From Polytrichum commune (taxonomy: Eukaryota > Streptophyta > Polytrichopsida > Polytrichales > Polytrichaceae), in the NCBI GenBank assembly GCA_950295325.1, contig OX485806.1, forward strand, positions 5,024,001-5,088,000: 64,000 nucleotides of DNA, written 5' to 3'. Each line of letters begins with the position of its first letter. Within the stretch, counting starts at the first letter, position 1. Position numbers and translations under genes: made by a program. Shown here in pieces: positions 13,032 through 62,092 of this stretch. A model generated the notes under the pieces. The model saw nothing but the letters and a program-made list of their open reading frames with translations. It was not told the origin of the DNA and did not search any database.

Positions 13032-16000
13032 ATGGAGGACCAGGAAGTTCAATTGGTGCCTCCTGTGGTGATTGTTGCGGCTCTTGATGATCTCTCACAG
13101 GAAGAGGTGATTCATTCTTGTAACTTTTGTTGTTAATGTTTTGATTGTTTGTTTGGTTCTGGGGTTAACTTCTTATTCTTGGATTGACTTGTTCTCTAGG
13201 TTGATGTACCGGCTGTTTCAGACTGCCTACGTCCACTAGCAGAGTCAAATCCAGAGGAGACTGAGCTCTTGATTCGAAGATCACAGAAGGAAGACTCGAA
13301 CTCTGTGATTCACCGGGTTCGATTCAAACCTATTGGGAAGTCACGATTTTCTATTCCATTGTGTCGCCTGCGATCTCTTCCTCTTGTTCGTCCCATCAAC
13401 GACGTTGATGTCGCACGTTTAGAAAACGAATTTGTTATGGGATATCGTGATGGTGATCGAGCTATGTACGTCTCCGTATACAACAATCTCGATGAAGTCC
13501 TTCACGTCTCCGATGACATCAAGGCCACTTGGAGTCCATTATGGATGGAGGCCAATTCAGAATTTGATGCCATCCTCGAAAGAGACTCAGACCTTGCTCA
13601 TTTTGTGGGCAAAATGTTCTTCGTGTGGGAGGGGAACCATCGTTTGACAGCTTGGTGGAGGCACATCAACAAGCATCACCCGTTGGACAAAGAATGGCAT
13701 ATCTCTGCTGACTGTATCGACGTGGATCCAAGAAACTGCACCGCCGTTTTTCTGAATGCTATGAAGGACATAAACTGGTGAGTTTGGCATTTTATATTCA
13801 TGTGTTTGTATTTATTTCGTTAGTGTTTTCCTCTTACATTTTCTTCGTTGTAGGTCCACGGAGCATGACCATGTTAAGGACAACCTCCCAGCAAAGTTAC
13901 TTCGCATTCGGACGTTTGGAAAGATGAAGCTGGAAGAATTTAAAGACCTCCTCTCCATCGCAGACTACAAGATGTGCGAGTCCAAGATGGAAAAGACTCC
14001 TACTTGGTATCCCCTTACGATAGACGTCTTCGTCAAATTCTTATACAAGGTATTTTTCTCTTTATTCCCCTCAAATGTTCATGTCTTCTGGTCATGCCGG
14101 TTCCTAATCCTTTTATGTTTATTTTAGAGGGAGATATCCAACGCTGCGGATAACGCGGCTAGGTTGTACCGTGAGGCCACTCCAGAGGCTCTTAGAACTT
14201 CTCCAGAAATATGGGAAGCTATGACAAAGGCCCAGGATAGGTTGATCAAAAGCATTCGCACCAGGAATTTTGAAAAATTCATTTCCGTCGCCCACAAGGA
14301 CAACGGTGATGATTTCTTCCATGAGGTGAACATTTCTCTCTTCGCCATGATTTTGGCCATATTTGATTTTTCATTTAATATGTACTCGGAACCGAGAGGG
14401 TGGGCTACATGGCCTAGCGAGAGCATTTGGGTTTGATATATATCTGAAATGGGCACCCTCTCGGTTCCGAGAGGGTGGGCTAGGTGGCCATTTTTAACAA
14501 ATCTGAAATCATGTGTGGGCTCGACTTTCTGAATTGACAGTATTTGGAACATATTTGATTGTCTGAAATGAGGTGTAGGGTCGGTATTTGGTTATATATG
14601 TGGGGCCATATTTGAGGATTTAAACATGTAGTGTGATTATGAATTTCAATATGTTTGAGTGTGGCACCCTCTCGGAGTGTTCGGGGCCATAATTTGAGAT
14701 CTTGAAATCAGGTGTAGGCGAATTAGTGTGGATTTTGGTTTGATATATATCTGAAATGGGGCACCCTCTCGGAACCGAGAGGGTGGGCTAGGTGCCCATT
14801 ATTTGAGATTTGAGATTTCAGGTTTAGATTTTGGTTTGATATATATCTGAAATGGGGCACCCTCTCGGAACCGAGAGGGTAGGCTAGGTGGCCAAATAGT
14901 GTAGTTTCTGAAATCAGGTGTAGGCGATTGTGTGCATTTTGGTTTGACATTAGTGTGAAATGGGGCACCCGAGAGGGTGGGCTAGGTGGCCAAATAGTGT
15001 AGTTTCTGAAATCAGGTGTAGGCGAGTGTGTGGATATTGGTTTGACACTAGTGTGAAATGGGCACCCTCTCGGAACCGAGAGGGTGGGCTAGGTGGCCAA
15101 TTTGTGAGGATTCAGATTTCAGATGTTGATTTTGGTTTGATAAATATCTGAAATGGGCACCCTCTCGGAACCGAGAGGGTGGGCTAGGTGCCCATTATTT
15201 GAGATTTGAGATTTCAGGTTTAGATTTTGGTTTGATATATATCTGAAATGGGGCACCCTCTCGAAACCGAGAGGGTAGGCTAGGTGGCCAAATAGTGTAG
15301 TTTCTGAAATCAGGTGTAGGCGATTGTGTGGATTTTGGTTTGACATTAGTGTGAAATGGGCACCCTCTCGGCACCGAGAGGGTGGGCTAGGTGGCCATTT
15401 TTGACAAATCTGAAATCATGTGTGGGCTCGAGTTTCTGAATTGAAAGTATTTGGAACATATTAGATTGTCTGAAATGAGGTGTAGGGTCGGTATTTGGTT
15501 ATATATGTGGGGCCATATTGGAGGATTTAAACATTTAGTGTGGTTATGAATTTCAATATGTTTGAGTGTGGCACCCTCTCGGTTCCGAGAGGGTGGGCAC
15601 GGTGGCCAGATTTTGAAGTTTTTAAAATCAAGTTTTGAGTGGTGTTTCTGTTTTTACAGTGTTCGGGGCCATATTTGACATTTTCTTGAATCAACTCTAG
15701 AGTCTAATTTCAGTTTATAAATATTTGGGGCCCTAATTTTGAGTTTCTCAAATCGAGTGTAGGTGATTAAGTGTGGTTTCAAGTTTGACATTACTGTGAA
15801 ATGGGGCACCCTCTCGGAACCGAGAGGGTGGGCTACATGGCCATTATGTGAGATTTCAAATTTCAGGTCTAGATTTGGGTTTGATATATATTTGAAATGG
15901 GCACCCTCTCGGAACCGAGAGGGTGGGCTAGGTGGCCGTTTTTGACAAATCTGAAATCATGTGTGGGCTCGAGTTTCTGAATTAAAAGTAATTTGTACAT

Positions 16001-22249: not shown

Positions 22250-24670
22250 TGTGCAAGTGTTGGTTGTAACTACATGTATAAGGATGTCAATAAATGACAT
22301 GTATTGGTTTGGATTATTATAATAAAAATCAGCAATGAATTGAAAGTGTTTTAAATGATCTATGGAAATAGGGCCCTTTCACTTGTGCTTCATTTAAAAT
22401 ATTGGCATGCTCATATATTGTCCAATGCGGAATTTTATTAAGCATGTTTTTTGCTTATCTATGATGGCGGGATTTGTCCAAAAGTCATTTGATAGTATTT
22501 TGTCTATGTCATCATTTTCTAGCCATTTGTGTAGTTGGTGCGTTTGACTTGCTATAATTGTTAAGTTATGTTCATTGTCATGCTTAATAATGTGTTTGCT
22601 AAGGTGCCTAATGGGACCTTTGTCAGGTGTTTCTTGCATGGAATGCCACCAGTCCTTTTGTAAGTAGTATGGTGTTGGGTGTGCATGCTCATATGGGATT
22701 GTGGCATCTCTATGTTCTAATTCAGGTCCTAGTTTGGCTAGTATGTCTGCTTGGTCATTTCCTTCTATGTTTGTGTGGGCCTTTATTTTGTGTATTGTGG
22801 TGGTTTGTGTGCGGGATATTAACATTTTAATCATGTTTTCTAGGATTATTTTGTCCGGGTGATTGTTATGATTAATGGGGTGTTTGATTTGGGTGTTTAG
22901 AAGGTATAGGATATTTAGACAATCTGTGAATATGTGGGCTGGTTCATTTCGGTATGTTGTGGTGAGGAGTTGTAGAGTGTGGTGGATGGCCATCATTTCT
23001 GCTCGTAGAATATTTTGTAGTCCCGGTAATCTTTCTGCAATTTTTAGTTTCTTGAAAGGGTTGTAAATCCCATATCCAGCTTTTTCCCGTCTCCATTGTC
23101 CATTGTTTGTTTGTTTGGGAGGTTTGAATGATCCGTCCGTGTAGTAGCAAAATTGGGGTGGATATTTAAGCCGTAGGCATTGTTCTGGGTTTATATTCCA
23201 TGGGTTGGTTGGGATTTGGGTGGTAGGCGGGGTGGGTGGGTAGGTGAGTTTGGACCATTTTGTATTACGGTTTACTGGGGTGTCTAGTGGTGTTGGTGGC
23301 GCTATTTGGCAGAACATTTCGGGGATACCTATTGTGTTGGCAATATCTTGCATTTGTTGGGTATGGGTCTCTGTTCCTATGGGTGTATTCTTATGGTGTA
23401 TGCATACTATTTGTATGGCTCGGTTTTTTGTTCTAGGTTCAATTCTTAATTTTGGGGGAATTGTTGGTTCTTCGTAGATGATGGTATTGGCTTTGAAGTG
23501 GGTGATAACATGCGAATCTGGGAAAGGGCCATTATGAGGATTGGGATTATGATACCAGTTTTCGTCTGGCATTACTAGTATTGTAATAGAATTTGAGTCG
23601 TATTTGGCTGCTAGGCGGGCCCAATGTAGGGCTTGTTGGGTTTCGAACACCATATTCGAAATTTTGGGAGATTTCCAGTCTCCCAATTTGATGACAGTTT
23701 AGGTGGAGTCGACCTAAAATGTACCCAGTGGGTACATTTTAGGTCGACTCAACCTAAACTGTATTTTCCCAAAATCATGGAATTTTCCCAAAATTTCGAA
23801 TATGGTGTTTTCGGTATTTGTGTGTGGGTATGCATATCCATTGCCATGCCATTTATGTTGAAATGCTTTTCCAACTAATCCAAAAACTACATCTCTAGGG
23901 AATGGGGAGTGAAATTGTTTGAGTGTGGTGGGGCATGTTACTGGTGATGAGAAATATGAGTGTGTTATTTGGAATGTGTTTATGAGGTTTTCAAGGATGG
24001 TATTTGGGAGTGTGTATTGTGAGAGTTTGAGGGGATCATTTTTGGGAGTTTTGTATTTATACCTTTGGTATAGCCATGCTATTTCAGTTTCGAATGGTTG
24101 GGTGGGGGGTTCGAGGTTGTGTGGTCTATTTAGTGCTAGGTGGTATTGGGCCCATAACCATTTTAGTCGTGTTTCAGGAATGGTAATCAAGTGTCGACCA
24201 GTGTTATCGTAGATGTGTGCATTGTCGTATTGGGTTTGGATAGTATATTGTGTGCATGCGATATCATCTTATGGGTTGCAGTCGTTAATGTGTATTTTGC
24301 ACAGGGGTATGGTTTGTGGTGGGGGGATATATTTGGTATCTTTTATCTGTTCTTGGTTGAAGTTTATGTTTAATATGTTAGTAAAATGTTGGTGTTGTTT
24401 TCAAGTGTAGTATTGTGTTAGTAGTAATATGTTATGGATTATGGCGTTTTGGTTGTTCCAAGGAAACAATTCTTTTTGGGCTAGCCATTTGTTGTAAGTT
24501 GTTTCATTTGGAAGTGTCCATTGGCATAAGTAGGATGTGTATTTTTTCGAAATTTTGTACTTGTCTGTGTATGCGCATAGTCGGTCATTTCTAATGTTTT
24601 GTATTGGGAAGTGTGTTGGGTCTTTGAGAATGTATGGGGGTGGTTTAGGGTATTCTAATGATAACTCCAT
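22250..24670 (-). mobile_element. LINE-like element, broken ORF with methyltransferase-like and RNase H domains
   Basis: On the minus strand a long frame starts at ATG 24670 and continues to 22394. It is interrupted by in-frame TGA (24401-24403) and TAA (24269-24271) and by a ~170-bp inverted repeat. The C-terminal part (22394-23686) has the RNase H type I motifs in order: YYTDGSF, LRAEMMAIHH, HIFTDCLNIL and HTNIEGNDQADILAK. The part at 23714-24190 has FSSPVTCP ... FHSPFPRDVVFG, followed after the interruption by ALHWARLAAK and ILVMPDENWY, which recalls PCIF1-type adenine methyltransferases in retroelement proteins. No reverse transcriptase is visible, so the copy is 5'-truncated or the RT is encoded elsewhere. 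Clearly mobile and clearly decayed; the methyltransferase assignment is tentative. Confidence 0.7.
23644..23815. repeat. Long nested inverted repeat inside the LINE-like ORF
   Basis: Outer arms: CGAACACCATATTCGAAATT (from 23644) returns reversed and complemented ending near 23815. Inner arms of ~35 bp (ACAGTTTAGGT...GTACCCA against TGGGTAC...ACCTAAACTGT) meet at a single central base near 23728. It separates two halves of the element's reading frame. Confidence 0.85.
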
Positions 24671-29860: not shown

Positions 29861-32221
29861 TACCGTACTTTGTGCATAAGATGTGCCCAAAATATTCCTC
29901 CCCTGGAAAGTTCATGGGGGAACTTAACGTCCTCCCTTGCACAAGCCTATTAGTAAAGACCCAACGAGCCACAAGACTCCAGGAGTGAGAAGCTTTTGTT
30001 GTAAATTAGATCAACTTATGTAGCTTATGCAGCCGCAATGTTTGAAGTAGCTTTGGCATTGTGCAGACTCAGTTTTGTGTTGTAACTTTATGTCTAGCAT
30101 CTAAACTAACTAAGACCGTTGGCATTCATTTGTTTTCTCCTCTAGTCTGCTTCAAGAAGAGCCTGGTGGCCTGCAAAAGGCATTATCTTTTACATTTACA
30201 TCCTGCTGGGCCATTCCATTTCAGGATCAAGGTTTGTGGCAACCCAGAATCGAGCACAAAGGTGAGCGAAGATCTTGTTCCTTCCAGTGATGTCCCAAAG
30301 GGAGAAAATTGCCATAACTTCAGGGAGCCTGTGGTGGTGCTAGGTTCTGTGTTGAAAATGTGGGACTGGTGAATTCATTAAATGTTGCGTTCGGTTTTTG
30401 TAGAAGGCATCTCTTCCAGCAACTGAGACCTGTCTGCAACGAGCTGGTTTCAGAGATAGATATATAGGAAGTAGTAGATTTGTAGATTGTGCTGCAGCCA
30501 GATTTTGTAGGTATAATTAGTAAGGAACGGGTCCAACACCTCCAAGTTTTGTACATTCTGATGTCCACTGCCAGTTGATATTTTCAGGAGCTCAGATTGC
30601 CCTGCACTTGGGTTGTGCTTGGCAGAGTAACAGCTGACAGAGTCTGTAAGGTACATGGGTGTTATTTGGTTACTCTTCTCGATCGGACACCTATATTTGT
30701 TTGGCGTGTCTTATGTAAAACTAACCAGTTCAAGTTGGTGAACATGAAAAATGAACCGAATAACACCCACATACCTACCTTAATTAATCATTTATGTTGC
30801 CATGCGTCAGACCAAGATTGCCCATAACTAGAAGTGAAAACAAGAAACGCAATCGGTTGAAGATTCAAGTGGGTTTTGTTGGTACACGTTGTGGATAGAT
30901 GTTGAAGTTTGCAAATTTTAACCTCAAGTTGTCACCTAGGCCTCTCATCCTTATATACCCAACAAGACCCCTTTGTTTGCCCTATATAAAGCATCATAAG
31001 TACATTCTTACCATTACCACTAAAACTTGCAATTGCCTCCTTAACTAACATTTGATGATATGAATGGAATTTCCAACATGGGTATGACGTAAATGAAAAC
31101 CTCCTCTCTTAATTGATAGTTGCCTCCCTTTTGGAGTGAGTTTGGAGGTGGACCCTACATTTAAAGATATAATAATTGAGAAGATGCACTCGTAGTCAAT
31201 ATGGATTGGGGTATTGGAATGATGTCTTGTGGACTTGATTCGTTTGGTGGTTTTCCGATTCACTTGGATGGAGAGAGGGTATTCTTGCATACAAGTGAAC
31301 CTCTCATCCATCCAACAAAAAAACTTGACCCTTGTACGTTTGTGACCAATTCATCTTGAAAAAGCCAAATTAGACTAATTTAAGGTCTTCAAAACTAATT
31401 ATGGTGTCAAGTCAACCAAAACAAAGTCCTTCATACAACATGTTATTTCAGGCTTTTATGTTGGATGAATGATAGATGTGCTCATATGCGATAATTTCCT
31501 CTCTCCCACTTGGCTCAAGTTTGTTTATAAGGCCTCTAAATTTTAATTTGATTGAGAAAGTCAATGTGACTGACACATGGTAAGTTTGATGGAGAACATC
31601 ACCTATTGCCAACATGATCTCAGGTGTGGGTGGAAATGCTTTCACAAGATCATGGTAGCAAGCCGAAAAGTTATGGTAATGGTGTTTGTATTTCCATGTC
31701 ATTTTGTCATGTCAACGACATTCTGGGGTGTTGTTGAAAATGTTATTAATCATTGAAAATTAGCAATGTAATCCCCATTTGATCTTATGAGGTTTTGTGA
31801 TGTAGATCTCTCATTAAGATGCTTCCATGATGATGGAGGGAAGTCCTTAAGTTAAATTGCGGTCTAAAGGTCAGAATTGATGACATTTCACCTTGTGAAA
31901 AGGACATATGGACAAAGTCTAGAACCTAGGTTAGGGAATCGTTACATACAAAAATACAACAAAGACGTATTAATAACATGAGATGTGGTCCACATCTAGA
32001 CCCTTCTTTTTGCATCTTCCATTAGAGAATATGCTGACATACCTACTTTTGTATAATCTCAATTTGTCCAAAATATACTTGATACTCAATTAGATTTGAG
32101 AGCTACATTTTCACCAACTCTTTCAATCCTATGGATGAGGTAGATTTTCAAAGACATTCATTTTTGCGTCATTTTTGTGTGGATTTTGTTGAGTTCTTGT
32201 GTAGATTTTGAGTCGCATGTG

Positions 32222-35200
32222 ATGTCTTCATCAATGGGGGAAGTGAAATATTTTCCTTGTAAACACCAATTCAAAGACGGCAAAGGAGATGGGTGCCACG
32301 ATTTTGACCCTTCAGATCGGGATCCATTGATATGTGAGTGTTGTGCTTGTCACCGCAACTTCCACGTGGTGTCGTCTAATGAAGAGTCAAGATGTGGGGT
32401 GTGTCAGAAACCCATTGCAGAGCAAGGTGGAAATGATGGGTGTCAAGCTTTCATCCCATCAACAACGCCAAGGGAGAAATATTGTGCATGTTGTTTGCAT
32501 CATCGAAGCTTTCACAAACCTTTGGTCTTACAAAATTATATGCCTTCAACAAATTGTCTAATTGGAAATGATATGAGGCATGACTCATCCTCAAAACCAT
32601 CAGGTGGTTAAATTCATCTACTCAACTTTCAACTTTGGATGCTCAAGCTCCTATAGCAATGCTTGAACCCTTAGATCTATATGTAGTATGGTCTAAAAGC
32701 AATGTTTGTTTTAGTTGAGCCTCTCGGGATGCCACTCTTTGTAAGATATTGATAGTCATGTGCAAGAAAATATAGGGTGGAATAAAATCCATAGGAGAAA
32801 AAATTATGAAATAATTAACATCAATATAGGGTTTCAAAATTTATTCAAAGAACATGTTAGGGACATTCCAAGAATATTCTTTAAATATATGGAATGTCCC
32901 ATACTATGTTCAATACTCCATAGCCCCCTAAAAAAATACCCCTTTACCACACGGGGTTCATATCCATACAAGGGAGTTATCACTTGTGGTTGAATCTTGG
33001 TGCAATTTAATCAGGTCACAATATGTATCTAGCTCAATGCAACTTATTTCATGGTATCAATCTTGGCTATAAAATGAAGCAGTAGAACTAGTTTTTTGTT
33101 TTTTCGGAGCTAAATAGAAATCAAATGTAAATAGAAGCAAAACATAACTAGTTACTTTATTTGGGTGTTTTAGGAAAGGCCATAGTCTAGGAGATATGTA
33201 GAAGGGTGAATTAAAAAGGCTATCATCTAATAGGAGGAGTCGTAGCCCCAGGAACTACTGACATGACGAGGCTAGTGGCTATAAAAGCTAGAGAGAAGAA
33301 GGAGAGAGAAGGCTGGGATAGCCAAAAGACTGGAATATGTATACTTATGAAATCAGGATGCTAGAGAGGTTGTCAGATGCAATTGTAATAGTTGGGGAAT
33401 TGAATCATAATTAGGATAACTCCAGGATGAATGTACTCGAGTATCTTTTGTTTGACAATATGTGTGTATATTTTCTTGTGATTGGAATTGTCAAGCAAAG
33501 CAAATCAGAGTAAGAGCCTATGTGATTGAAGTCAAATCCAGGTCTTTGCATTAAAGTCCATAGTCTTGGAATTATCAATTGTTGATATAATTAAGATTTA
33601 TAAAAGGTAAAGCTCACATGGATCTGAGAGAGTGATTACGACAAGAATCAAGCATGGTGTTTACCACTAAGTTAGTATGCAAAATTGATCATACTGACCA
33701 CATCTCTTTAAACTCTCTCTCTAGACTTGTTTGGTTGACCCTTCTGTTTATGCATTTTGGCATAGCGAGTGGTTCCTCAACTCCAAGTTTGAGCGGTCAT
33801 CACCCACCTATCCATGGAATCTCAAAGGACCTACTAGAGGAAGCCAAGAATGGTAATGTTGACGATGACATGGCTCACAGTTCTAGTGGCATACATGACC
33901 TTGATATGACCAAGTACGATGTCTTTGTAAATCACCGAGGGCCCGATACGAAGTTAAGCTTTGTTGCCCATCTTGAGGAAGAATTCAAGAGGCACGGGCT
34001 CACTGCTTGGGTGGATAGAAATTCATTGGTGAAAGGGGAGCAAAACTCGAATTCCATCAGAACAGCCATTGAAAAAATCCAAGTTCATGTGGCAATCTTC
34101 AGTCCTGGATACACAGAGTCTGTATGGTGTCTCAACGAGCTCCTCCATATGATAGAATGCCAACACGAGCCCAGATCTCCTGTCCTTGTACCTATCTTTT
34201 ATAACGTGGAGCCTGAACACCTTCGGCGGCCGGAACTGTTTGAGCCATTCAGAAGAGGATTGCAAAAACACAAAGACAGAGGGCTTTGTGTTGAAGATTG
34301 GGAAGCAGCTCTTCGAAAGGCTGCAGAGATATCTGGGATTTCACTCGAGACCATGGCTGGGTAAGTAATGTTGAGTAAAAGGATCATCATTTGACATATT
34401 TTAAATACTCTTTAAATTAGTACATGTTAACTGAAAACTGCCCATTGTCCCTTGTTGCAAAACTGGTTCACATGTTCAAAGGTACAATACAGTCATCCTT
34501 TAATTCAACTATTCTAGTTTTGGTCAAGAGTTGATTATTTGCATTCATATCTTTCCATTTTTAGTAAGTTTTTGGTGCATGTTTGGAGTTTGTGTGGAGG
34601 TTTGAGTCAAAAACATTTGATAATTGGTTCATTGAAGGGCCAAACTTATATAGTGAGTATTTCTTGGTGTGCTTCTTATATGTTTTGAAACTTTGAAACA
34701 ACAAAGGTGCATGGGCATTGGTGTGCTCATTGTTCCAAAATGGACACTTGTATGTAGATTACGACATATGGAACGGACGTTGTGAGGATGGTCTAGAACA
34801 TTAATTCATATGCACAGGTGCATTGAAATGCCAAGATGACATGGACCCACACTAGAATAGTTAATCTCTCTATTCATCAACCTATATATGATTGTACTTT
34901 CAAATATTCTATGCTAACAATATTCATAATTGTGTGTGCCACATTGGTATGCGTAGGGATGAAAGCAAGTTGAAAAAAACAATCATTGAGGAAGTTGAAC
35001 GAATATTGGGACATCATTCATTTAGAATGCAAGCAGGGACTCCGGACCATAAAGTTGGTCTTCAAACCATGCTCAATACGGAACTTGAAGAGTTGGCAAA
35101 ACTGGGAGATGGCTTAGGCGTACGAGGGATTTCAGGCATGGGAGGAATTGGCAAAACCACTTTGGCCAAGGAAGTTTACAATCACTACTCTAAAAAAAAT

Positions 35201-38200
35201 GCTTTTGAGTGCCAAACATTTCTGGAATTGGGAAAAGGGGCAGACTTGGTGACCTTGCAAAGGCAAGCATTGAATGACCTCCTGCAAAAGAAGGGTGTAG
35301 AGAATGTGGGTGAGAATTATAATTATTGGTTTTCGAGGCTCATTGGGCGGTCGGTTCTAATTGTCATTGATGACATCCTAAATGACGATCAATTCATGAA
35401 ACTTGTACCAGACATAACAAGGTTGGGACCAAAGAGCCGTATCATTTTAACCTCACGCGAGCAAAATGTTTTGAGGAGGATTATGACTGACATACCTAAG
35501 TATTCTTTGTACATAATGAGGCAACTTAACCATGTGGACTCTTTTGAGCTCTTCACCTTTCATGCATTCAAAGGAACAAAACCACCTTCAAAGGCCTCCA
35601 ACTTGACGATGTATGATTTGGCAACTCGAATCACACATTCTTGTGATGGTCTACCATTGGCCTTGGAAATTCTTGGGAAACATATGTTTGGGAAAGAAGA
35701 GGATGTTTGGAGCAAGACAACCCAAACCTTGCAGAGCAGACCAGAGGTTTTGAGTAAATTGAGCATAAGTTTTGAAGGCCTACCATCTGAGGCTGAGAAA
35801 ACGATGTTCTTGGATATTGCATGCCAAATGATAGGTTTACATGTGGCGGATGCAATTGACATTTGGGAGTCATGTACCCCATCATGCACAAACCTTTGTT
35901 TGACGTCTAGAAATGTGCCAGATTCATTGGCCATTTTGAAAGACAAGTCATTGATAGATGTGGACACAAACAATCTACTCACCATGCATGACCTCCTTCG
36001 GGAGATGGGCAAAGAGTTGGTTTGCAAAGAGAAGATAGGTGGTAAACCACTTCTGTTTGAAGCTCGAAGTCACTTATGGGATTTGGATGCTGAAGCTCTC
36101 CTCAAGAAAGGGAAGGTATGTATCTTAGCTAACCTCATGCACACTAGCTTAGGCCAATAACACAAGAAAGTTTGGATAGTTCACTCCCTAAGGAAACATG
36201 TGGTAAAGTGGGAAATAACTTGGGGAATGGACCTTAGGTTGGTGTACACGTTCAAAACATCTACCAATATGGAGGATGAAAGTGTTGATTTGAGATCCTA
36301 AATTAGTCTAGCGTGGTGATTTTAGAGTGAATCATGGATGACCCTATAGGGGCCAAGTTCTTTCCACAACCTATAGGTGTTGGGAAATGAAATCCCTTAG
36401 ATATTTTTTCCATACTTTGTCCACTTTACGCTAGGTGGACATGGATAACCATGTTGGTTGTAGTCATGTGTTAAATATATGCACAAACATGTATGGTAGA
36501 AATGGAGTAGGTCTACAAGGTACCTAGCAAACATCATGTGGTAAAGTGGGCAAAACATGATGAACATCGAATAGGCCCATTCATCACATTGTGAGGCCAA
36601 ATCCACCACCCTTAAGCGTCCTAGTCCGGGTGATGACTTTGAGAATCACATTTATCTATTACAACATTGAACCATGTGCAAGGTAATTTTCATGTTCAAT
36701 TGGACGTGTATTGTCTCGCTCATTGTGCTTTATTAATGTTGGCCTCTTGGCTTGTGCTAGAGTTGGCTTTCTCAAGAGTCCAACCCGCGGCTTTAGCCGC
36801 GCATGCCCTTACGGACATTCCCCTCACTCTTTTGAGTTTCACCCCCTCTATCTTGCCATTGCAAGAGTCCTTCACATTCTCCATTAATAATGCAAGTAAG
36901 CTATTTTGACCGGGAGGTTCAAGTGTTGAAAAACACTCTTCTCAACGGCTAAACGCACTCATACAACCCCACACGTGGCACAACTAGCCTAATTGGTCTA
37001 ACTACTTAGCTACCCCTAAAATGGCCTAATGTCATCTAGTTTGCTATATGCTAACGCCCATTAATTGGGCTTAGCCTTGCTAGCCACTAAATATCCTAAT
37101 GGTAGTTTGCAACTAATTAGTTTTCGGCAGTCTGCTGCCCCTTGGTTCGGTGCTGCCCTCCTCCAGAAACTGGCTGCAGTCACAGCCTAAGTATGGCTTG
37201 CAACTAATTACCTCGGCAGTCTGCTACCTATTAGCTCGGCGCTGACCCCCTCCACAAATTGGCTGCAGTCACAGCCTAAGTGTGGCTTGCAACTAATTAC
37301 CTCGGCAGTCTGCTGCCTATTAGCTCGGTGCTGACCCCCTCCAGAAACTGGCTGCAGTCACAGCCTAAGTATGGCTTGCAACTAATTACCTCGGCAGTTT
37401 GCTGCCTATTAGCTCGGTGCTGACCCCCTCCAGAAACTGGTTGCAGTCTCAGCCTAAGTATGGCTTGCAACTAATTACCTCCGCAGTCTGCTGCCTATTA
37501 GCTCGGTGCTGACTCCTCCAGAACTGGCTGCAGTCACAGCCTAAGTATACCAGTTGGGCCTTAGCTAACTTGATGATGCTGCCTATAAATTGCACTAAAC
37601 GCCACTTTCTCTACTAATCAAACCTTCTCTAATTTCTTCCTCTTTTTCTTTTCCTTTTCTTTTCTTTTCTTCTCTCCTTAACTAATGAACTAACCTATCA
37701 CACTAACTTCACTAACAACTACCTAATCTACCTTGGTAATCTCAAGCTCCAAGAGTGCACTTCACTTGGGAGGCATTGAGAGAGAGAGCTTAACTAATTA
37801 AATTCACTAAAAACTAATAACCCACACACGTGGCTCAAGCTCTTAAGAGCTTGCTCCCTTGAGAGCGCTTGATGGAGAGAGTCGCAAATGAGAGAAGGAA
37901 CACCTTAAGTAGCAAAGAGGGAGAGAGGGAGAGAGGGAGAGAGGGAGAGAGAGGTGAGGATAGGGTGGGAGGATTAGCACCTCCAATCACAATCCCTTAA
38001 CCTTCACCTTCAAAGTAGGGACTAATCCCCTTCCACCAAGCTTCCTTCTTCCTAAACTACCAAGGTGGATCCAAAAGTGGGCATTTAACCCGCGGAGCTC
38101 ACCTTGCCTCACCTTACCCTTTACTCACATAATCAAGGCATCCTCTTATTGAAATCAAACCTTGAAATAACTACACAACACATTCTAATGCCTAAACTTA

Positions 38201-41200
38201 AATCCAAACCACACTTCACTCTTTTTATGTTTTGTGAATAATCATAACACATCCAAGTCAAACTAAAATTGGTTTCGAAGAGTTAATCACCACATGTGGG
38301 CACCATTTTGGGCTCACACACATGTTTCCTTAGGTATGTACCACAACTTTTGTGCACATTGGCTTTGGCAAATGGCACAAGAAATTTTGGACAATTACCA
38401 CCAAAGGAAACCATGTGGTTATGTGGACAAACCTAGGGAATGGATATCACTCATTTTTTCTTCTTAGGTTTTGTCCACTTTCACCTTGGTACTAGTAAAT
38501 TGCTCAATATTTCTTGTGTGCATTGAATTAGAGTCATGTTGGTTGCAATCATTTGTTGAATATATGTCTTAAATTCCAAACATGTATGTTGGAAATGAAG
38601 TAGAGACCAAGAAACTTGACATTTCATCGTTATGAAAGTTATGAGTGTTACTTGATCCTCCACAAATTTTATTTCTAGAAGACATAAGTTGTGCAAGTTA
38701 TCCCTTGGTACTTCACTATCTCATAGGTTTTATATATACAAGCATAGAAGTTTTTTTTTGTGGGGGGGGGGGGGGGGGCTATTTATCCAATTTTGTTTCC
38801 TAATACATTTCCCCCCCTACTACTTTGGTCATTATCTTGCACCCTTTGGTGGTTTGAACTTAAAGTTTTTATGTTTAAACTTAATCCTATGATAATTCCA
38901 AAAATGTATCTTCTGTGTTGTGTCAAATCAATGTATATGTGATACTTTAAGGCAGCCTTCATCAACATGCTTAGTAACATAATGTAGCCCATTAGCACAA
39001 GACTTGGGGGTGCCTTATGTTATTAAGTTCTTCAACAAAGGGTGGAATGCATTAATGACAAGGGATTGAGACACCAAAGATTGACATGAATACAACATGA
39101 TGAACAAGAACACAACTATAGTATTTAAAATAAAGTATGTAAATAGAATTAATGCTATAGTACATTGAATATTTTTCGAAATTTTGCTTACAAAAATAAA
39201 GAATACCTTATATTAAATCTCACCCTATTTCTAATATTTTTTTGGTTAAGTACTTGGGAAGCTATGTCCTTTAATTTTCTTATTGTCGTTTTCTAATTGG
39301 CAGGATGTAGAGGAAAACATTCGAGGCATATCGTTGGTTGGGCACATGGCTGCCATTGATGCTTCAATGTTCAAGAAGTTTGTGGAATTGCACTTACTCC
39401 AACTAGATGGGACTCATATAGAGGGTGATTTCTCGGGGACATCTGACAAGCTTCGGTGGCTACAATGGAGGTCCTCATTTCTTGAATATGTGCCTACCAA
39501 GATGTGCTTCTCATGTTTGACCATGTTGGATCTTTCCAAGAGCAATACCCTAACACGACTTTGGTCAGAGAATCAGGTGAGGTTACTCTCAACTAGGCAA
39601 TTCAATATAATTTGGAAGATGTTACAATGGTGACTTAAAGCCAATGCCTTAACCCATATCCCATGGGAACTCAAAGGTTAAATATGTATAAAATCAAAAT
39701 AGTGCTTGGTTGGGGGTGACCTTCCTAGCACTTGGTTCCAGTGCACCTTATCATCTATGGTCCACCTATTAAATGTAGTGGAAGTATTTGGGTGGATTAG
39801 CTTTTTTCTAATTAATCATATGAAAACCTAGGGGCTTGCCCTTGGAAGAGATAGGTACTAGCCAGCTTGTTAGTGCCCGTTCAAGGTGTTCATCTTCAAA
39901 AGAGACGACAATCTTTGAGGTTTTCTAATTCTCGTAAAGCTTGTTTCATGATAACATGTACATATAGGCTCAAACCAACTCGAATAAAAAATGAAGCATG
40001 TATCATAATTCACGGTGGTGGCAACATCAATGTCGTCTTTCTTTTCTATCTCTTCGTTCTTTCCAGCTACCATCATGAAGAAATCATTTGCTATTGCTCT
40101 GCCATAGCTTCCCCTGCCTCAAGTTTAGGATTTACATTACTGGATGTCTCAACTCCAAATTGACATCGGACCATGTCTAATTAATATATGCACGTTACAA
40201 AGTGCTACACTATTTTATCTAATCAGTGTGGAGTACCATTTGGAGTTATAACATTCTACTGAGAGCACCAGTTTTTACCCAAATAACATAGGTAGTTAGT
40301 ATGCACACTGAAGAATATGATATAGGTTAGTTGGTGAAAAGTTACAGAAACATATAACTTCGAATGGTTACCCACACTGATTAGACAAAACAGTGTAGTC
40401 TCCGGAATTCTATTGCATGACAACTTTTGACCTTGATTCTTGAAGCTGAATTCATAACTTACTCTCTTATCCATTAGATGTCATTAGTTTCACTCTGCAT
40501 GATAATTTGGATATCATAATGTATACTACTTTTCCATCCACACTTACAACGATGTCCATAACCTTGATAAATTCGACCTAATTTTTAGAGACACGATTCA
40601 ATGCAGGCTCCCAGGCTATTGCGAGTTCTACTCCTTCGAGACTGTGTGCTGTTGGAGAAGATCCCACGTGACATCATGCTCCTGGAATACTTGAGGAAAT
40701 TGGATCTCCAGGGGTGCAAAAACTTGAATGAACTTCCAGAATCTCTTGGACAGGTGACGCAACTGGAGTATTTGAACTTGAATGAATGTGGGAACCTGAA
40801 CAACCTGCCTGACGAAATGGTCAATTTGTCAAGCCTGAAGATCTTCTCAATGAACAGGTGTAGCAAGATCACAAAACTTCCAGAAAATTTTGGAAACCTC
40901 AAGGCACTGCTGGAATTCTCCGCTGAGGGAGCGACTGGTCTCTCTGCCTTACCAGACTCATTCTCCGGACTCCACAATTTGGAGAAGATTGTGCTGAATG
41001 ATTGCCACACATTGACCAAGCTGCCTAATTCTGTCAAGGGCCTTGTGAAGCTCAAGGAGCTTCGTATGCAATCCACGGCAATTTCAACATTGCCTGACGA
41101 CTTTGGAGATCTTGAAAACCTTGTGGAACTCTTCCTCCAACATTGCGACTGCTTACAAAGTCTTCCTGAGAGTTTCGGAAAGCTCAAGAGTCTCCATAAG

Positions 41201-44173
41201 CTCAGCTTGCACAAGTGTCATAGGTTTCGGACGCTACCGCAGAACTTTCAAGAGTTGTTCAACCTTGTGGACCTCGACCTTGAAGAATGTCCTATTGAAG
41301 ATGATGATTTGCCTCAAAACCTTGGAGGCCTGAAGAGGTTGGAGTTTCTTCGTATGCGGAAGACCAATGTGACCACCCTGCCAGAGTGTTTTAGGGATCT
41401 CATAGCCCTGGTGCATCTCGACATGCAAGAAAGCCCTAATCTGGTGGACGTTCGAGCGTTACCTGCATCCCTTGAGGAGCTTCTGCTTAGTCATTGCCCC
41501 AAGCTAATGGAGACACTTAACATGGAGGAGAACAAATTGTTGATCAAATTGGACCTACACAATTGCACAAGTTTGACTGCTGTTCAGGGACTGGGACATC
41601 TGGATTCACTTCAGGAGATCAATGTGAGTGGGTGCCGGAAGTTGGTGGATATGCATGAAAAACTTCTTCGCAAGACAAAAATGATGAGATGTTTCTTGGC
41701 TGGAAGTGGAGCTTGCCAAGAGTACAACAACAACTTTTTAGAGGTATCACAATCTCGACCAATCAGTTTACTGGCATGCTCCTTTTGCAGAATATGAAGT
41801 CGTGCAAACAAGTAGATCAAAGCTACACAGTAACGGCATATCGTGATGCGGATTTCCTCAAAGCATCAAACACATGGGTCCAAGTTATGGTTTGATTAAG
41901 TGACAATTGAATATGTAATCATAAGTACTGTGAAAAAATCCATCATGCTTTCGAAATCATGATATGAATTTAATAGTTTGATTGAGTGAGTTGGAGTCTG
42001 TGTCGATGACCAATGTGACACCATATACAGGATTTATAGCTACAAACCTCTAAATAAACGTTGGTGCCCTTAATCTTTTTGTTTAATTTCAGGGAAAGGA
42101 AATTTCATCACAACTGGTCAGCTACTATGACCATACTCTCAGATTTGCTCAATATATTATGCCAAAAAAGATTAGTTCAAAGGAACACGCCAATGAGCTC
42201 AGCATGGAGACAACCGTGTCAAGCATGAAGAAGGTCAAAGCTGTCGTCATTGCTCTTGTGGCGCACGATCAAGGTTGGTCTGATTATCCCTATCTTCACG
42301 GGATGTACAATGGAGATTGCGAGATTGAAGTTCGAATTAAACGAGACAAGGAGGAAGTCTATTCAAGTCGGGTAATCAGATTGCGACACGCGGACCATCG
42401 CGATCAGGTCTATCTCCTCACATTATACGAATCCCACCCTGTCATTCGAAGGTTGCAATTCGACGACAAAGTTTGCGTTTTTGCACTATCCAGATATCAG
42501 GGTTGGGAAATCACAGTGATGCAAGGGAACATAAGCTTTGTGCATGATGAGCAAGATCAGCCAGGTTTGGCGTTCAGGAATTTGCGGCTGAAGGACTACC
42601 AACCTGGAAGTCATGAATATCCGAAAGTCATACAAGGTTACAGTGTGGTTGAAAATTCTGCAAATGGGGTTGGTGATGGCTCTTCTTCATTACATCGCAC
42701 TCCTGTTCGACTCGTTTATAAACCGTTTCACAGCGAAGTTGTAAGTGCAATGACTATTCTTATTCACCATTCAGATATGTCTAGTATAATTGTCGGTTGG
42801 TTGATCCTGCTCAACAATGCAATTAGAGCATCCTCAGTCGATCTAGGTAAAGCTCACTGCAAACCAAAACCTATCTTTTGACTGACCTAAAATTAGAAAC
42901 TGAAATTACCATCATTAGAAGCACACCTAAATAAACGTGAGATATTTCTCAAGAAAACATAATTATAAAAATTTGACGGTGAAATCCCTCATTGAAAACA
43001 CCACATTTTCAAAATTTAGAGGGAGTGCACCAAATCTTGCTTTAAAATGGAAAGATCCTCCCACACTCCCTCCAAATTTTTGACATTTAGAGGGAGTGTG
43101 GGAGGATCTGTCCATTTTTAAGCAAGATTTGGTGCACTCCCTCTAAATTTTGAGCAATTTTAGGCAAGATGGGTTTTGGTTTGCAGTGAGCTTTACCTAG
43201 ATCGACTGAGGATGCTCTTAGTACACAGCGCAGGGTGTAATCACGCTTGTTGAGGGGCTTAAGGGTATCGCCAGCCCATTCCCGGCATCAGCTCCCGGCA
43301 GGGCGGGATGCAGGGAGCCCTGCTCAATGGAGGGAGGGTTTGGCGGGAGGGGGGTCCAGCCCATTGCCCGGCAAGGGCCCCCCGGCACACAGGTCTCCAG
43401 CCACGTAGCCCCCGGCACACAGGTGTCCCAGCTTCACAAGCTACTTTTGGATAAGGCAGTGTGTAGCGGGAGGACAACTTCTCTCGGCAAACTCCAAAAA
43501 TGTGCCGAGAGCGGGAGTAGCTTTACAGGGACCCTGTGCATAACGGGCTGGTACCGAGCCCGGGCTCACTGTTCCCGGTAGTTACCGTTGCCGGGAATGG
43601 GCTGGCGATGCCCTAAGAGAAAAATAAACAACCTACATCCTTGGGCTTGGCATCTTACATTCTTCTAGGTGAAATTATATTGAAATACACCTGGTGACAT
43701 CTAATTTCAAGAGACATGTACCTAAAGTCCACTCTAAACATGGGGTGCTTGGAGCTGCAGACATCTGCCTTCTCGCACATACCTAAATTACCTATTTTCA
43801 AAACAAGGATGTTATTTCTCACGTATATAGGGAGAAATCGAGGACATTATGAGCAAATAAATCTGACTTGATTATGTGGTTGTAGGTCATGTGGCAGAAA
43901 CCCATTCGTAGATGTGATGGTTGCAACACAAGCATATGGGAACATGGCTGGCATTGCAACATATGTGATGATTTTGACTTCTGTGAGAATTGCTACAACG
44001 GGTCGAAGGACACAGGAGAGCTAAATTCACCTCACACTTCAGAACATCTTATGTCTGCATTTGGACCAAAAGAAGAGACACTCGTCGGTTTACATCCAAA
44101 TTGGGGATATCTGATGCAACATGATGAATCAGCAACCAATTTTACTTGGAGCGAAACCTTCAATTTCCCATAG
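32222..44173 (+). CDS. TNL-1: ZF-HD x2 - TIR - NB-ARC - LRR - HDQGW domain - ZZ finger
   Basis: Seven exons: 32222-32603, 33766-34360, 34957-36115, 39304-39576, 40607-41743, 42093-42740, 43886-44173 (1493 residues); every junction is GT-AG and keeps phase. Two ZF-HD-like fingers lie at ~10-48 and ~58-98 (DGCHDFDP...CHRNFH; DGCQAFIP...HHRSFH). The TIR starts at ~178 (YDVFVNHRGP) and keeps the likely catalytic Glu in WCLNEL (~252). NB-ARC has P-loop GMGGIGKTT (~386), kinase-2 LIVIDD, GLPLAL (~557), FLDIAC and MHD (~669). LRRs span ~740-1150. A beta domain with AHDQGWSDYP (~1239) and RYQGW (~1316) and a ZZ finger (CDGC...CNIC..FDFCENC, ~1408-1452) follow. Intracellular NADase-type immune receptor by family. 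The first ATG could instead be 32234. If exon 1 is a separate small gene, the TIR would need its own start. Confidence 0.78.
37103..37555. repeat. ~90-bp tandem repeat inside the solo LTR
   Basis: Five units beginning TTGCAACTAATTA at about 37107, 37198, 37287, 37376 and 37466, each with CTCGGCAGTCTGCTGCC and GGCTGCAGTCACAGCC. They lie just upstream of the LTR TATA box, the usual place for an LTR enhancer array. Confidence 0.88.
37915..37956. repeat. GAGAGAGG microsatellite
   Basis: About 40 bp of GAGAGAGG repeats downstream of the LTR TATA box, within the transcribed part of the LTR. Confidence 0.8.
42826..43217. mobile_element. PIF/Harbinger-type MITE in intron 6 of TNL-1
   Basis: A 392-bp insertion absent from TNL-2 (empty site CAATTAGTACAC). 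Terminal inverted repeats of about 46 bp start GAGCATCCTCAGTCGATC, and the interior is itself largely self-complementary. The flanking direct repeat is TTA (42823-42825 and 43218-43220), the target of PIF/Harbinger elements. No coding capacity. Confidence 0.9.
43263..43613. mobile_element. Second, GC-rich Harbinger-type MITE in the same intron
   Basis: A 351-bp insertion absent from TNL-2 (empty site GGCTTAAGAGATA). Terminal inverted repeats of 25 bp start GGGTATCGCCAGCCC, and the target duplication is TAA (43260-43262 and 43614-43616). It is strikingly GC-rich in an AT-rich intron. The ORFs predicted across it are chance. Confidence 0.88.
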
Positions 44174-46003: not shown

Positions 46004-48223
46004 GAAGTAATTTCCAAACAATCATTCCACTTTATTACAACCTAATGCGTAAAACCTTCAGGCACGCAACTCGCGTATTATATGGCCCTCATTATAGTCA
46101 CTTATAATGCATTTTAGTCCAATCTCAAGTGATGTAATTTGTTCTAATGTAGGAATTCTTGTAGTCCTTCTAACAAGGAATTCAAAAATGCAATTATTCC
46201 AGGTTGATGCATGTAATTGTTTTAAAAACCTAATTTTATATATATATATAATAAATGTTCCATGGGCCAAACTACCCAACTTTTTGGATTTTTATATAGA
46301 AATTTAAGGTTTTTTAATCATAAATAAAACGTTGCCAATGACTTTTAATTTTAATTAGAGGCAACCACCCCAATCAACATAGATTCATAAAATAGGAAAT
46401 ATGGAGTTTTTATTAAAATAAATATGAAACTAAATTTTTTGCACATCTCATATTATTTAATATGGTCTTCACCCAACTTTTTGGTCATTTTATTTTTGTA
46501 TAACATGATATAATTCTTACAAACTGGGAGAATAGGAGCACTGTTGAATATAGAAAAGTTTCTAGAATACTTCAATTGTCTCAGCAATGCGGGGGAGGTG
46601 TGGACACCTAAGGTGGAAGCAACCCTCTAAACCATTTTAATGTTGATGCCCTCTGTGTATAATATGGAAGTTGCATTGACTTTCGAGGTTTCTTCAAGAA
46701 TGGAGAATGGGTAGCTTTACTTTCTTGGGGGTGCACTCATTGTTAAAAAGTACAGACCCACATGGGTGCACAAAAGGGGTATTAAATTTGCCTAGGGGTT
46801 ACAAAATATACATAAGGGATGGGTATCATTTATTTTATCTTTGTGAATTTACTAGGCATATTATTCATACGCACCTACTTGTATTTCCATCTTTTGACGC
46901 ATAATCAATTATAAAGAAGTGGGTAATCTATAAGAGGTCCAAATGAATACTTCATCCAATGTGCGCGTTGAATTATAATCCCACATTGACTAGAATCACT
47001 AGACTCACGCAATGTTGTATGTCAAACCGAAAGTTGGACTATCTGGAGCCAGAGATAATGATTACTCATTGAAATTGAGATGTGATTGTGCGGTATCATT
47101 TTGTCACTCAAGGAGTAATTGAAGGAGTGAATAAAAAGATGAATACAAAAAGCAAGTAAGCTAAAACATTGACAACCAAGACTTGGTATTTGGGAAGGGT
47201 CTATAAGATGCGCCACAAAATTGGCAACATGTGGATTGAATATCAACAACTAATTGACCTCAAGAACTAGCCTTCCAATATGGAAATAAGGTTATGTTGG
47301 TATTAAAATTAGAATGGGTCAAATGCAGTCCTACGATTTGACAAATCATTTGATGGTGGAGCTAGAAACCATTCTTGCATTGGCTACAATGACTTATATT
47401 ATAGAAACAATTTGTATAAGTTACATCTAATGAATGAACGAGTGTTCAATGATAAATAAATATGTCTTCCTAAGAGTATTTTAGTCATATTTCTCATATG
47501 ATGATCTTTTTGACGTACACATATCATTGCAATTTATATGAATTACTTCTTTATTTCTCACTTGTGTATGTATTCAAGTGGATTACTCAACTACATATTG
47601 TACATAATTCATTTTTAAGAGGGAGAAAATGTTACATATTAGGGGTATTAAATTCCAGGTCATGCACACACATGGTTTCCAATTCTAACAATGAGTACAC
47701 CCCCGATGGTTACTTTAGTCTTACAAATATACCTATGATGAAAATGGTATGGATTACCATTTAAATCATATGGGTACCATGATCTAGTAACCAGTAATCT
47801 AATGACAGTAAGGGTGAATTTCCATGTACATTGAGCTACAACAAAATCTTCTCACCTCTTGAGTCTTGTCCACGTGCACTGCACAAACGAGTGCATAAAA
47901 CCCCGAGCACTGACTTTCAAGGCTTTTTCAAGAATGGAGAACACCTGGCCTGCATCAAGTGGGCAGCGCTACTTTAGTGTTGCAGATCACCTATGGTGAA
48001 AATGGTAGGAATATTACCACATAGAATTGTATGGGTTTCATGATCCAGTTACCAGTCAAGGTAGATGTCATGACAGCATATTCTAACACTGTCATAACAT
48101 TATTCATCTACCTTGCTGTCAAGGTAGATGTCATGTGGAAACAATCTGGGCTTGCTACTTAATGTGATCGTCTTCCAACATAACATTAAGTGGTAGTAGC
48201 TGGTGTTGTGATGTGGGCTTGTT

Positions 48224-52462: not shown

Positions 52463-55400
52463 ATGTCTTTATCAATGGGGGAAGTGGAATATTTTCCCTG
52501 TAAACACCAATTCAAAGAAGGCAAAGGAGATGGGTGCCATGATTTTGACCCTTCGGAAGGGGATCCATTGATATGTGAGTGTTGCACATGCCACCGCAAC
52601 TTCCACGTGGTGTTGTTTAATGAAGAGTCAAGATACGGGGTGTGTAAGAAACACATTGCAGAGCAAGGTGGAATTGATGGGTGTCAAGCTTTCATCCCAT
52701 CAACAACGCCAAGGGAGAAATATTGTGCATGTTGTTTGCATCATCGAAGCTTTCACGAACCTTTGATCTTACAAAATTATATGCCTTCAACAAATTGTCC
52801 ATCTGGAAATGATATGAGGCGTGATTCATCCTCAGAACCATCAGGTGGTTAAATTCATCTACTCAACTTTCAACTTTGGATGCTCAAGCTCCTCTAGCAA
52901 CTCTATGCTTGAACCCTTAGATCTATATGAAGTGTCGTCTAAAAGCAATGTCTGTTTTTGTTGAAGCTCCGGGGAGGCCACTCTTTGGAAGATATTGATA
53001 GTCACGTGCAAAAAACATATAGAGTGGAATAAAATCCATAGGAGAAAAATTTATGAAATAATTAACAATCAATATAGGGTTCTAGAAATCTATTCAAAGA
53101 ACATGTTAGGGACATTCCAAGAATATTCTTTAAATATATGGAATGTCCCATAAATATGTTCAATACTACATAGCCCCCTAAAAATATCCCTTTACCGCAC
53201 AGGGTTCATATCCATACAAGGGAGTTATCACTTGTAGTTGAATCTTGGCACAATTTAATCAAGTCACAATATGTATCTAGCTAAATTCAACTTATTTCAT
53301 GGTGTCAATCTTGGCTATGAAATGTAGGATATGGGATGTACATATATAATGTAAAAAGTCCTTATTGTCTATTTTCTTAGCAATTTAAAGATAATCTTCA
53401 CTTTAAACTCCCAAAAATATTGCATCTCAATTTTAATTTTGAATTTGGATGGTAGAAGCCATGGGTTGGAGTGGGCGCCCAATCTACGGAACTGCGACAA
53501 CGGTGGGATAGATATTGGGTGCCTATTACAATTGATGACAAGGCTCTACACGTACATGATCACCTAGTTTGGAATGGATAATGCATCTCTATATACCCAA
53601 TCATGACACTACAAGCACATGAATTCTAGACAATTGACTTGTGCCATTGAAAACTTGCCCTCTATCACTGGACAATTTGCAAATCTACCATAACCGTAGA
53701 TTTTCATTGACCTTTCACCAATGTAGGTAGATTGCCTAGGACTCATATGCTCGTAGTGGGAATTGACATGTCAGCAAAGTCACTCGGCCTTATCACTAAG
53801 TTAGTGCGCAAAATTGATCATACTAACCACATCTTTGCACACTACAAGTACAAGAGTTCCAATCAATTGACTTGCTTCATTGTAAACTTGTCCTACGTCA
53901 CTAAACTTTTTACAAATCTACCATGATAATGGCAGATTTGCATTGATCTTTCACTGACGTATGACTCATATGTTGGTACTGGGATTAGACATGTTAGCAA
54001 AATCACTTGGCCATACCACTAAGTTAGTGTGCACAACTCATAATGCTGACCACATCTATGTAAGCTCTCTTTCTAGACTTGTTTCATTGACTAATCTGTT
54101 TTATGAATTTTGGCATAGGGAGTGGTTCCTCAACTCCAAGTTTGAGCGGCCATCACCCACCTATGCATGAAATCTCAAAGGACCTACTAGAGGAAGCCAA
54201 GCATGGTAATGTCGACGATGACATGGCTCACATTTCTAATGGCATACATGACCTTGATATGACCAAGTACGATGTCTTTGTAAATCACCGAGGGCCCGAT
54301 ACGAAGTTAAGCTTTGTTGCCCATCTTGAGGAAGAATTCAAGAGGCACGGGCTCACTGCTTGGGTGGATAGAAATTCATTGGTGAAAGGGGAGAAAAACT
54401 GGAATTCCATCAAAACAGCCATTGAAAAAATCCAAGTTCATGTGGCAATCTTCAGTCCTCGATACACAGAGTCTGTATGGTGTCTCAACGAGCTCCTCCA
54501 TATGATAGAATGCCAACGCGAGCCCAGATCTTCTGTCCTCCTACCTATCTTTTATAACGTGGAGCCTGAGCACCTTCGGCGGCCGGAACTATTCGAACCA
54601 TTCAGAAGAGGTTTGCAAAAACACAAAGACAGAGGGCATTGTGTTGAAAATTGGGAAGCAGCTCTTCGAGAGGCTGCAGACCTATCTGGGATTTCACTCA
54701 AGACCATGGCTGGGTAAGTAATGTTGAGTAAAAGGATCATCATTTGACATATTGTAAATACTCTTTAAATTAGTACATGTTAACTGAAAACTGCCCATTG
54801 TCCCTTGTTGCAAAACTGGTTCACATGTTCAAAGGTACAATACAGTCATCCTTTACTTCAACTAATCTAGTTTTGGTCAAGAGTTGATTATTTTGCATTC
54901 AAATCTTTCCATGTTTAGTGAGTTTTTGGTGCATGCTTGGAGTTCGTGTGGAGGTTTGAGTCAAAAACATTTGATAATTGGTTCATTGAGGGGCCAAATT
55001 CATATAGTGAGCACCTCTTGATGTGTTTACTATATTTTTTCAAACTTTGAAACGGCAAAGGCGCATGGGCATTGTTCCAAAATGGACACTTGTATGTGGA
55101 TTATGGCATGTGGAACGGACGTTGTGAGGATGGTTTAGGACATTAATTCATATGCACAGGTGCATTGAAATGCCAAGATGACATGGACCCACACTAGAAT
55201 AGTTAATCTCTCTATTTATCAACCTTTATATGATTGTACTTTCAAATGTTCTATGCTAACGATATTTATCATCGTGTGTTCCACATTGGTATATGCAGGG
55301 ATGAAAGCAAGCTGAAAGAAACAATCATTGAGGAAGTTGAACGAATATTGGGACATCATTTATGTAAAATGCAAGCAGGGACTCCGGACCATAAAGTTGG

Positions 55401-61400: not shown

Positions 61401-62092
61401 TGACTATTCTGATTCACCATTCAGATATATCTAGTATAATTGTCGGTTGGTTGATCCTGCTCAACAATGCAATTAGTACACAGCGCAGGGTGTAATCACG
61501 CTTGTTGAGGGGCTTAAGAGATAAAATAACAACCTAAATCCTTGGGCTTGCGTGTCTTATATTCTTCGGGGTAAAATTATAATGAAATACACCTGGTGAC
61601 ATCAAATTTCAAGAGACATGTACGTAAAGTCCACTCTAAACATGGGGTGCTTGGATCTGCAGACATGTGCCTTCATGCACATACCTAAATTATCTATTTA
61701 CAAAACAAAGAGGGTCTTGCTTACTTATGTATAGGGAGAAATCTAGGACGTTCTGCGCAAATAAATCTAACTTGATTATGTGGTTGTAGGTCATGTGGTA
61801 CATGTTGAAGAGACCCGTTTGTAGAATTTGTGATGGTTGCAACACAAGCATATGGGATCATGGCTGGCATTGCAACATATGTGATGATTTTGCCTTCTGT
61901 GAGAATTGCTACAACGGGTCGAAGGACACAGGAGAGCTAAATTCACCTCACACTTCAGAACATCCTATGTCTGCATTTGAGCTACCAAAAGAAGAGCCAC
62001 TCGTCGATTCACGTCAAAATTGGGGATATCTGATGCAACATGATGAATCAGCATCCAATTTTACTTGGAGCGAAACCTTCAATTTCCCATAG
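52463..62092 (+). CDS. TNL-2: ZF-HD x2 - TIR - NB-ARC - LRR - HDQGW domain - ZZ finger
   Basis: Seven exons: 52463-52844, 54119-54713, 55299-56457, 57914-58186, 59218-60354, 60704-61390, 61790-62092 (1511 residues). The structure and phases equal those of TNL-1. All NB-ARC motifs are present (GMGGIGKTT, LIVIDD, GLPLAL, FLDIAC, MHDLLREMG), as is the TIR Glu in WCLNEL. Differences from TNL-1: the second ZF-HD-like finger has Tyr in place of its first Cys (SRYGVC for SRCGVC), RYQGW is RYQRW, and exon 6 is 13 codons longer near its end. The ZZ finger is intact (CDGC...CNIC..FAFCENC) though the usual Asp before the Phe-Cys is Ala. No frameshift or stop was seen, so it should be functional as a receptor. 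The start is the conserved in-frame ATG; 52475 is an alternative. Confidence 0.78.
53605..54058. repeat. ~225-bp tandem duplication in intron 1 of TNL-2
   Basis: Two diverged units (from about 53605 and 53836), each with CAATTGACTT, ACTCATATG and CACTAAGTTAGTG. The intron of TNL-1 has only the end of one unit (near 33663-33705). Confidence 0.7.

Follow-up and report, generated by a model that had tools for sequence, protein, structure and literature searches.

In the stretch of DNA analysed here (the window; 64,000 nt, C4:5024001–5088000 in the coordinates of the genome searched), an exon encoding a pair of ZF-HD-type zinc fingers lies upstream of each of two TIR-NBS-LRR (TNL) receptor copies, raising the question of whether the fingers belong to the receptor and, if so, where they came from. 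We put a probability of roughly 55% on the reading that a young group of TNLs has the finger exon as its first coding exon, and that the pair is of the lineage of a transposon family residing in the same genome.

Both receptor copies lie on the plus strand. In copy 1, exon 1 (32222–32603) is separated by a predicted GT...AG intron with phase 1 on both sides (32604–33765) from a TIR exon (33766–34360; Pfam TIR, E = 3.2e-27), which is followed directly by a GTAAGT donor. Further downstream lie a frame encoding NB-ARC and a winged helix (34892–36160, exon ends approximate; Pfam NB-ARC, E = 4.6e-30, and WHD_ROQ1), a frame that by eye resembles the LRR-like start of the C-terminal half (39250–39633), and an open frame matching Pfam LRR families (40589–41797). 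The TIR, NB-ARC and LRR domains of a TIR-NBS-LRR gene are thus ordered in one locus. Copy 2 comprises exon 1 (52463–52844), a predicted intron 1 that fits in splice sites and phase (52845–54118), a TIR exon (54119–54713; Pfam TIR, E = 2.1e-28), and NB-ARC (55234–56502) and LRR (59200–60408) open frames that look by eye like those of copy 1. The Pfam scan covered the TIR, NB-ARC, WHD_ROQ1 and LRR frames of copy 1 and, downstream of exon 1 in copy 2, the TIR alone.

Exon 1 is 382 nt long (1 mod 3) in both window copies and, as the sequence-only reading of this DNA had proposed, encodes two ZF-HD-like fingers upstream of the TIR exon: comparison with the ZF-HD_dimer profile (PF04770) yielded two matching stretches each, at 41.3 bits in copy 1 (E = 1.9e-10) and 44.9 bits in copy 2 (E = 1.4e-11), over the cut-off of 27. 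ZF-HD_dimer was the sole Pfam match of exon 1 at E ≤ 10, setting it apart from the zf-BED domain that defines BED-NLRs, and the seven frames scanned with Pfam contained no homeodomain after the fingers, as a ZF-HD transcription factor would. A PDB search with the finger alignment returned no meaningful match, and a single-sequence AlphaFold model of exon 1 was discarded (mean pLDDT of 31). At the other end of the receptors, a C-terminal frame past the LRRs is conserved in both copies (42087–42881; 60698–61495, like copy 1 by eye). In copy 1 it had no match in Pfam or PDB searches, and it is perhaps a second unusual receptor domain. Elsewhere in the window, minus-strand frames at 22394–24268 resemble by eye a retroelement RNase H and tail, and repeated minus-strand frames reading PTLSVPRGCPFHTN at 9118–12406 and 14723–15088 are probably a repeat array rather than genes.

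Genome-wide searches (408 Mb in 64 contigs, ~406 Mb of it in seven large ones) placed the two window copies in a small group. The exon 1 protein produced 17 matches at E ≤ 1, five of which constitute the receptor group, i.e. the window copies together with L001 (C4:4535475), L002 (C4:4607274) and L005 (C2:3854978). For the TIR exon, at least 84 matches were listed at E ≤ 1e-5 and at least 129 candidates scored. Five of these matches, 87–100% identical, are co-located with the five finger exons at a distance of 1162–1275 nt. Among those listed, the remaining TIR matches did not exceed 51% identity (43% for the best-scoring one), and comparison of positions by eye put the nearest finger match at least 176 kb from each of these other 79. 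Frames upstream of eight other TNLs, inspected by eye, revealed no finger pair either. With 5 of 84 listed TIR matches having it, the finger exon was rejected as a general TNL feature. Not general to TNLs and with non-NLR relatives at transposon loci, the fingers would qualify as an integrated domain if carried on the receptor transcript.

Within the receptor group, finger exons are 77–100% identical (85–100% among the four full ones), and the duplicated segments also span upstream and intron DNA. In L005, finger 1 and the beginning of finger 2 are deleted with the reading frame preserved, and similarity to the other receptor copies breaks off shortly into the NB-ARC exon. A portion of the copy 1 intron 1 (33076–33662) gave no blastn alignment to L001, L002 or L005, as if it had been replaced. 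A six-frame genome scan with the ZF-HD_dimer model called 11 matches at E ≤ 0.001, which included window copy 2 and L001; window copy 1 and L002 were missed at this threshold, indicating that the single receptor fingers are divergent family members.

Exon 1 ends in CATCAG|GTGGTTAA in all five copies, always with a length of 1 mod 3, the TIR exon always follows GGCATAG, and the joined frame is stop-free in five of five. Five finger exons are hence paired with five TIR exons across an open phase-1 join. For the window copies, this bears out the earlier claim, exact in its coordinates, that exon 1 ends CATCAG|GTGGTT in phase 1 and that the TIR exon restores the frame in both duplicates (32603/33766 and 52844/54119) over a gap of ~1.2–1.3 kb. 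As these duplicates are recent, they do not provide independent evidence for the join, and exons would join in phase by chance about one time in three; the further copies L001, L002 and L005 join in frame too. Compared to the splice donor consensus MAG|GTRAGT, CAG|GTGGTT fits at 7 of 9 positions. In copy 1, 25 GTs were scored from exon 1 base 61 onwards and this donor tied for best; over the interval 32222–33766, a score of 7 was attained by 5 of 92 GTs. The TIR exon's own donor scores 8 in L001 and 7 in the other four copies. The pyrimidine tract of the acceptor is ordinary to poor (8–11 of 16 in the five copies), and a search for the predicted exon junction in intronless form turned up one site at three mismatches vs. 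three such sites in the control, no more than background. Exon 1 is probably spliced to the TIR exon.

Does exon 1 evolve like coding sequence? Across the five aligned copies, all three of its indels are multiples of three (189, 6 and 33 columns). The TIR exon is free of indels; of the eleven in the opening 450 nt of intron 1 none is a multiple of three, and of the eleven in the 450 nt upstream two are. For such multiples, other controls gave 5 of 9 (first 560 nt of intron 2), 4 of 26 (whole intron 1, part of which is unalignable in copy 1) and 3 of 20 (700 nt upstream), and the four-copy comparison of intron 1 gave 7 indels in 1281 columns, one of them a multiple of three. In view of the less favourable intron controls, the absence of frameshifts is by itself not strong evidence for coding. 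Simulated random substitutions left the exon free of stops with a probability of 0.16 (40 substitutions) or 0.06 (60 substitutions); exon 1 varies in 60 columns. Its dN/dS was 0.41–0.74 in five of the six pairs of full copies and 1.61 in the sixth (0.35–0.63 for the TIR exon), and ranged from 1.16 to 4.72 or was undefined in the four pairs involving L005. Coding constraint on exon 1 is thus moderately supported by these comparisons, and the indel, dN/dS and donor-score results together make it likely that exon 1 is coding and that its in-phase donor can be used.

Outside the receptors, the best matches of the exon 1 protein were L003 (48% identity, E = 1e-17), L004 (39%, 2.3e-12) and L006 (38%, 2.6e-11), all transposon proteins that share the two-finger layout, with further places matching more weakly. 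Of the ZF-HD homeodomain genes, only one appeared among the matches at E ≤ 1, with an E of 0.068. The genome contains four full-length ZF-HD matches above 100 bits, and in its ZF-HD genes the homeodomain is visible by eye; C3 and C1 each have one place with a ZF-HD domain split in pieces. At the DNA level, receptor sequence from 30801 to 33800 matched the transposon loci at finger 1 and otherwise only in a weak 48-base alignment within intron 1 (E = 0.001). On these alignments, the receptor finger pair is homologous to that of the transposons.

L004 and L006 are two copies of one element (5.8 and 6.0 kb), 99% identical in blastn blocks of 1471 and 4188 bases. Their homology begins and ends at CCCGGGGTGGCAAC inverted terminal repeats flanked by perfect 8-bp target duplications (CTCAGCTC and GTAACGAG), identifying both as DNA transposons. 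One frame opens with the finger pair and a second encodes 1114 and 1189 aa, respectively; no recognised transposase domain was detected in Pfam, in an NCBIfam scan of two transposon frames, or in PDB searches with the second-frame protein and its alignment. The putative donor element family shares 8-bp target duplications, inverted terminal repeats and, by eye, BED-like motifs with hAT- or P-type DNA transposons, of which these are traits, but matched no known transposase in these libraries.

L003, L008 and L009 are degraded relatives whose mutual alignments span both the finger and the second-frame regions. Linkage of fingers and second frame was verified at five loci (L003, L004, L006, L008 and L009). 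Where seen, the ends are similar: L008 reads CCCGGG..GCAACTCCC at its 5′ end, and L003 and L009 carry the reverse of this sequence at their 3′ ends. The finger-bearing elements are diverse, L003 and L004-type second frames being 47% and their finger pairs 38% identical. Searching the genome with the L004-type second frame gave at least 42 matches, some of them pieces of one locus, from 39 of 242 candidates scored. The wider family includes L019–L022, whose frames of ~1200–1500 aa have no finger pair; the pair therefore seems to mark a subfamily of this transposase-like family. L019–L022 carry the motifs LAEDETK, GHASDGDSRRRQLM-like and GSDxCExFF, and relatives of this transposase-like type, differing in the N-terminus, are spread over all seven large contigs. 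The two-finger module has a third setting in the helicase-like locus L010 (C1:52246000–52255000), where the same pair (1584–2069) lies ahead of frames matching AAA_12 helicase.

The finger-bearing family has also left its trace in the window. A plus-strand relic at about 46061–46674 (blastn E down to 5e-55), which sits between the two receptor copies, is a deleted element whose left part resembles the 5′ part of L007, L008 and L009 and whose right part the 3′ end of L003 and L009. The relic shows that the family reached the receptor locus; that it delivered exon 1 does not follow from this.

An unrooted tree of ten finger pairs, computed without L005 (deletion) and the broken pairs of L009, L027, L028 and L029, and with one stop in L008 written as X, resolved three sets: the receptors, the L003-type elements (98.6/100), and L004/L006 together with L010 (99.2/100). 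The branch between the receptors and the rest had a support of 79.3/34. In a tree of single fingers, including the four ZF-HD genes and omitting L007, the first fingers of the receptors and L003/L008 stood apart from all else (90.6/90), all first fingers and one L010 second finger were united at 80.5/41, and the receptor second fingers sided weakly with L004/L006 (80.7/45). The shared tandem layout argues for one old two-finger unit. The simplest history that we infer is a two-finger module within the transposon family that one TNL lineage acquired as its first exon and that multiplied along with this lineage. As the closest relatives of the fingers in the same genome are mobile elements rather than plant regulator genes, the data suggest that the receptor acquired its finger pair from a transposon, and from the sequence comparisons we lean towards movement from transposon to TNL over the reverse or a third source.

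Three other accounts of the locus have to be weighed against this reading. The fingers and the TNL could be two adjacent genes, namely a small two-finger protein ending at the TAA at 32609, just inside predicted intron 1 and 8 bases past the donor of copy 1, and a separate TNL whose start ATG lies within the TIR exon or immediately upstream of it, the two having been multiplied together in one duplicated segment. Small MIF proteins with this domain type exist, and since the duplications took in upstream and intron DNA as well, fingers and TNL should be linked in either case. An in-frame ATG directly 5′ of the acceptor in four of five copies, and later ones within the TIR exon (MAHS, MTKYDVF) that could begin a finger-less TNL, likewise count against the fingers being part of the receptor. 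However, L005 has CTG in place of the ATG closest to the acceptor, donor and acceptor are phase-compatible in five of five copies, and L005 has kept its frame across two deletions that took out most of the fingers, something for which a stand-alone finger protein would have no need. On balance, two separate genes appear unlikely, although this is the alternative that we take most seriously.

The other two accounts accept the fusion and concern its source. According to the earlier proposal, the fingers mirror or guard ZF-HD transcription factors; as an integrated decoy, they would copy the host ZF-HD dimerisation domain and report effectors attacking ZF-HD proteins. The significant PF04770 matches speak for this, as does the ZF-HD region among wheat integrated domains in a passage of PMC7422411. 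Yet the best ZF-HD gene reached E = 0.068 vs. 1e-17 and 2.3e-12 for transposon proteins, the fingers are tandem with no homeodomain in the scanned frames, and the receptor first fingers group with those of transposons and not with the four ZF-HD genes, making a ZF-HD decoy very improbable. Of the sequence-only reading, the ZF-HD-type pair in phase with a TIR-NBS-LRR thus stands, with an exon that evolves like coding sequence, whereas the ZF-HD factor as its guarded partner is not supported. Alternatively, the transposons may have taken the pair from the receptor, or both may have obtained it from a host two-finger gene such as L010, whose pair beside AAA_12 helicase segments makes a host source possible, and the trees do not fix the root. 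Against this, the receptor copies are few and alike (85–100% in the four full finger exons) while the finger-bearing elements are diverse, and with a ZF-HD root the receptor and L003-type first fingers separate from the L004-type ones (90.6/90). We regard such an origin as improbable, if less so than the ZF-HD decoy.

If the fingers are indeed a transposon-derived first exon of the receptor, the pair may be an additional N-terminal module, with DNA or a partner protein as its ligand, as proposed for BED-NLRs. It might serve as a sensor or decoy platform, or help to bring or hold TIR domains together, with NB-ARC and LRR presumably operating as in other TNLs. N-terminal fingers of transposases bind element ends or dimerise. 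By a highly speculative extension, to which we attach the slightest weight of all, the N-terminus would be a domesticated end-binding module of a transposon, and the ends of a transposon family in the same genome would tether the TIR enzyme or trigger it. If this were true, the NLR would watch the genome's own mobile DNA, or effectors acting on it, instead of a transcription factor. More generally, a ZF-HD label on an NLR need not mean that ZF-HD transcription factors are the guarded target. The case bears on the source of integrated receptor domains: one genome contains the receptor exon, two near-identical related elements with clean ends and an adjacent relic of their family, so that the supply of receptor modules from transposon parts becomes directly testable.

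How does this receptor group compare with known systems? ZF-HD transcription factors and MIF mini zinc fingers share PF04770 with the receptor fingers; these differ in forming a tandem pair, in having no homeodomain in the scanned frames and in being nearer to transposon proteins. The earlier remark that such a receptor was of an unfamiliar kind was too strong, given that ZF-HD or zinc-finger integrated domains are reported in passages of two surveys. In the wheat survey (PMC7422411), the integrated domains listed for NLRs include the ZF-HD dimerisation region, that is, the same domain family on an NLR, known there from a list entry alone. In the survey of non-flowering plants, zinc fingers are among the NLR integrated domains, and NLRs with integrated domains are reported from mosses (PMC11218826). 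The term 'ZF-HD' was not found in the main texts of PMC12787737, PMC11218826, PMC7145615, PMC11126693 and PMC4759884, and a TNL with transposon-type ZF-HD fingers was not found in the titles and abstract openings of the open-licence papers that literature searches listed.

BED-NLRs such as Yr7, Yr5, Xo1 and Xa1 offer the closest working comparison, as they likewise carry a transposase-type zinc finger on an NLR. The receptor described here differs in that its module is a ZF-HD-type finger pair, not BED, and in that the receptor is of the TIR type. According to published work, NLR BED domains resemble single-BED and transposase-type BED proteins (PMC7761493), and Zf-bed, a frequent integrated domain of angiosperms, is tied to CNLs (PMC12787737).
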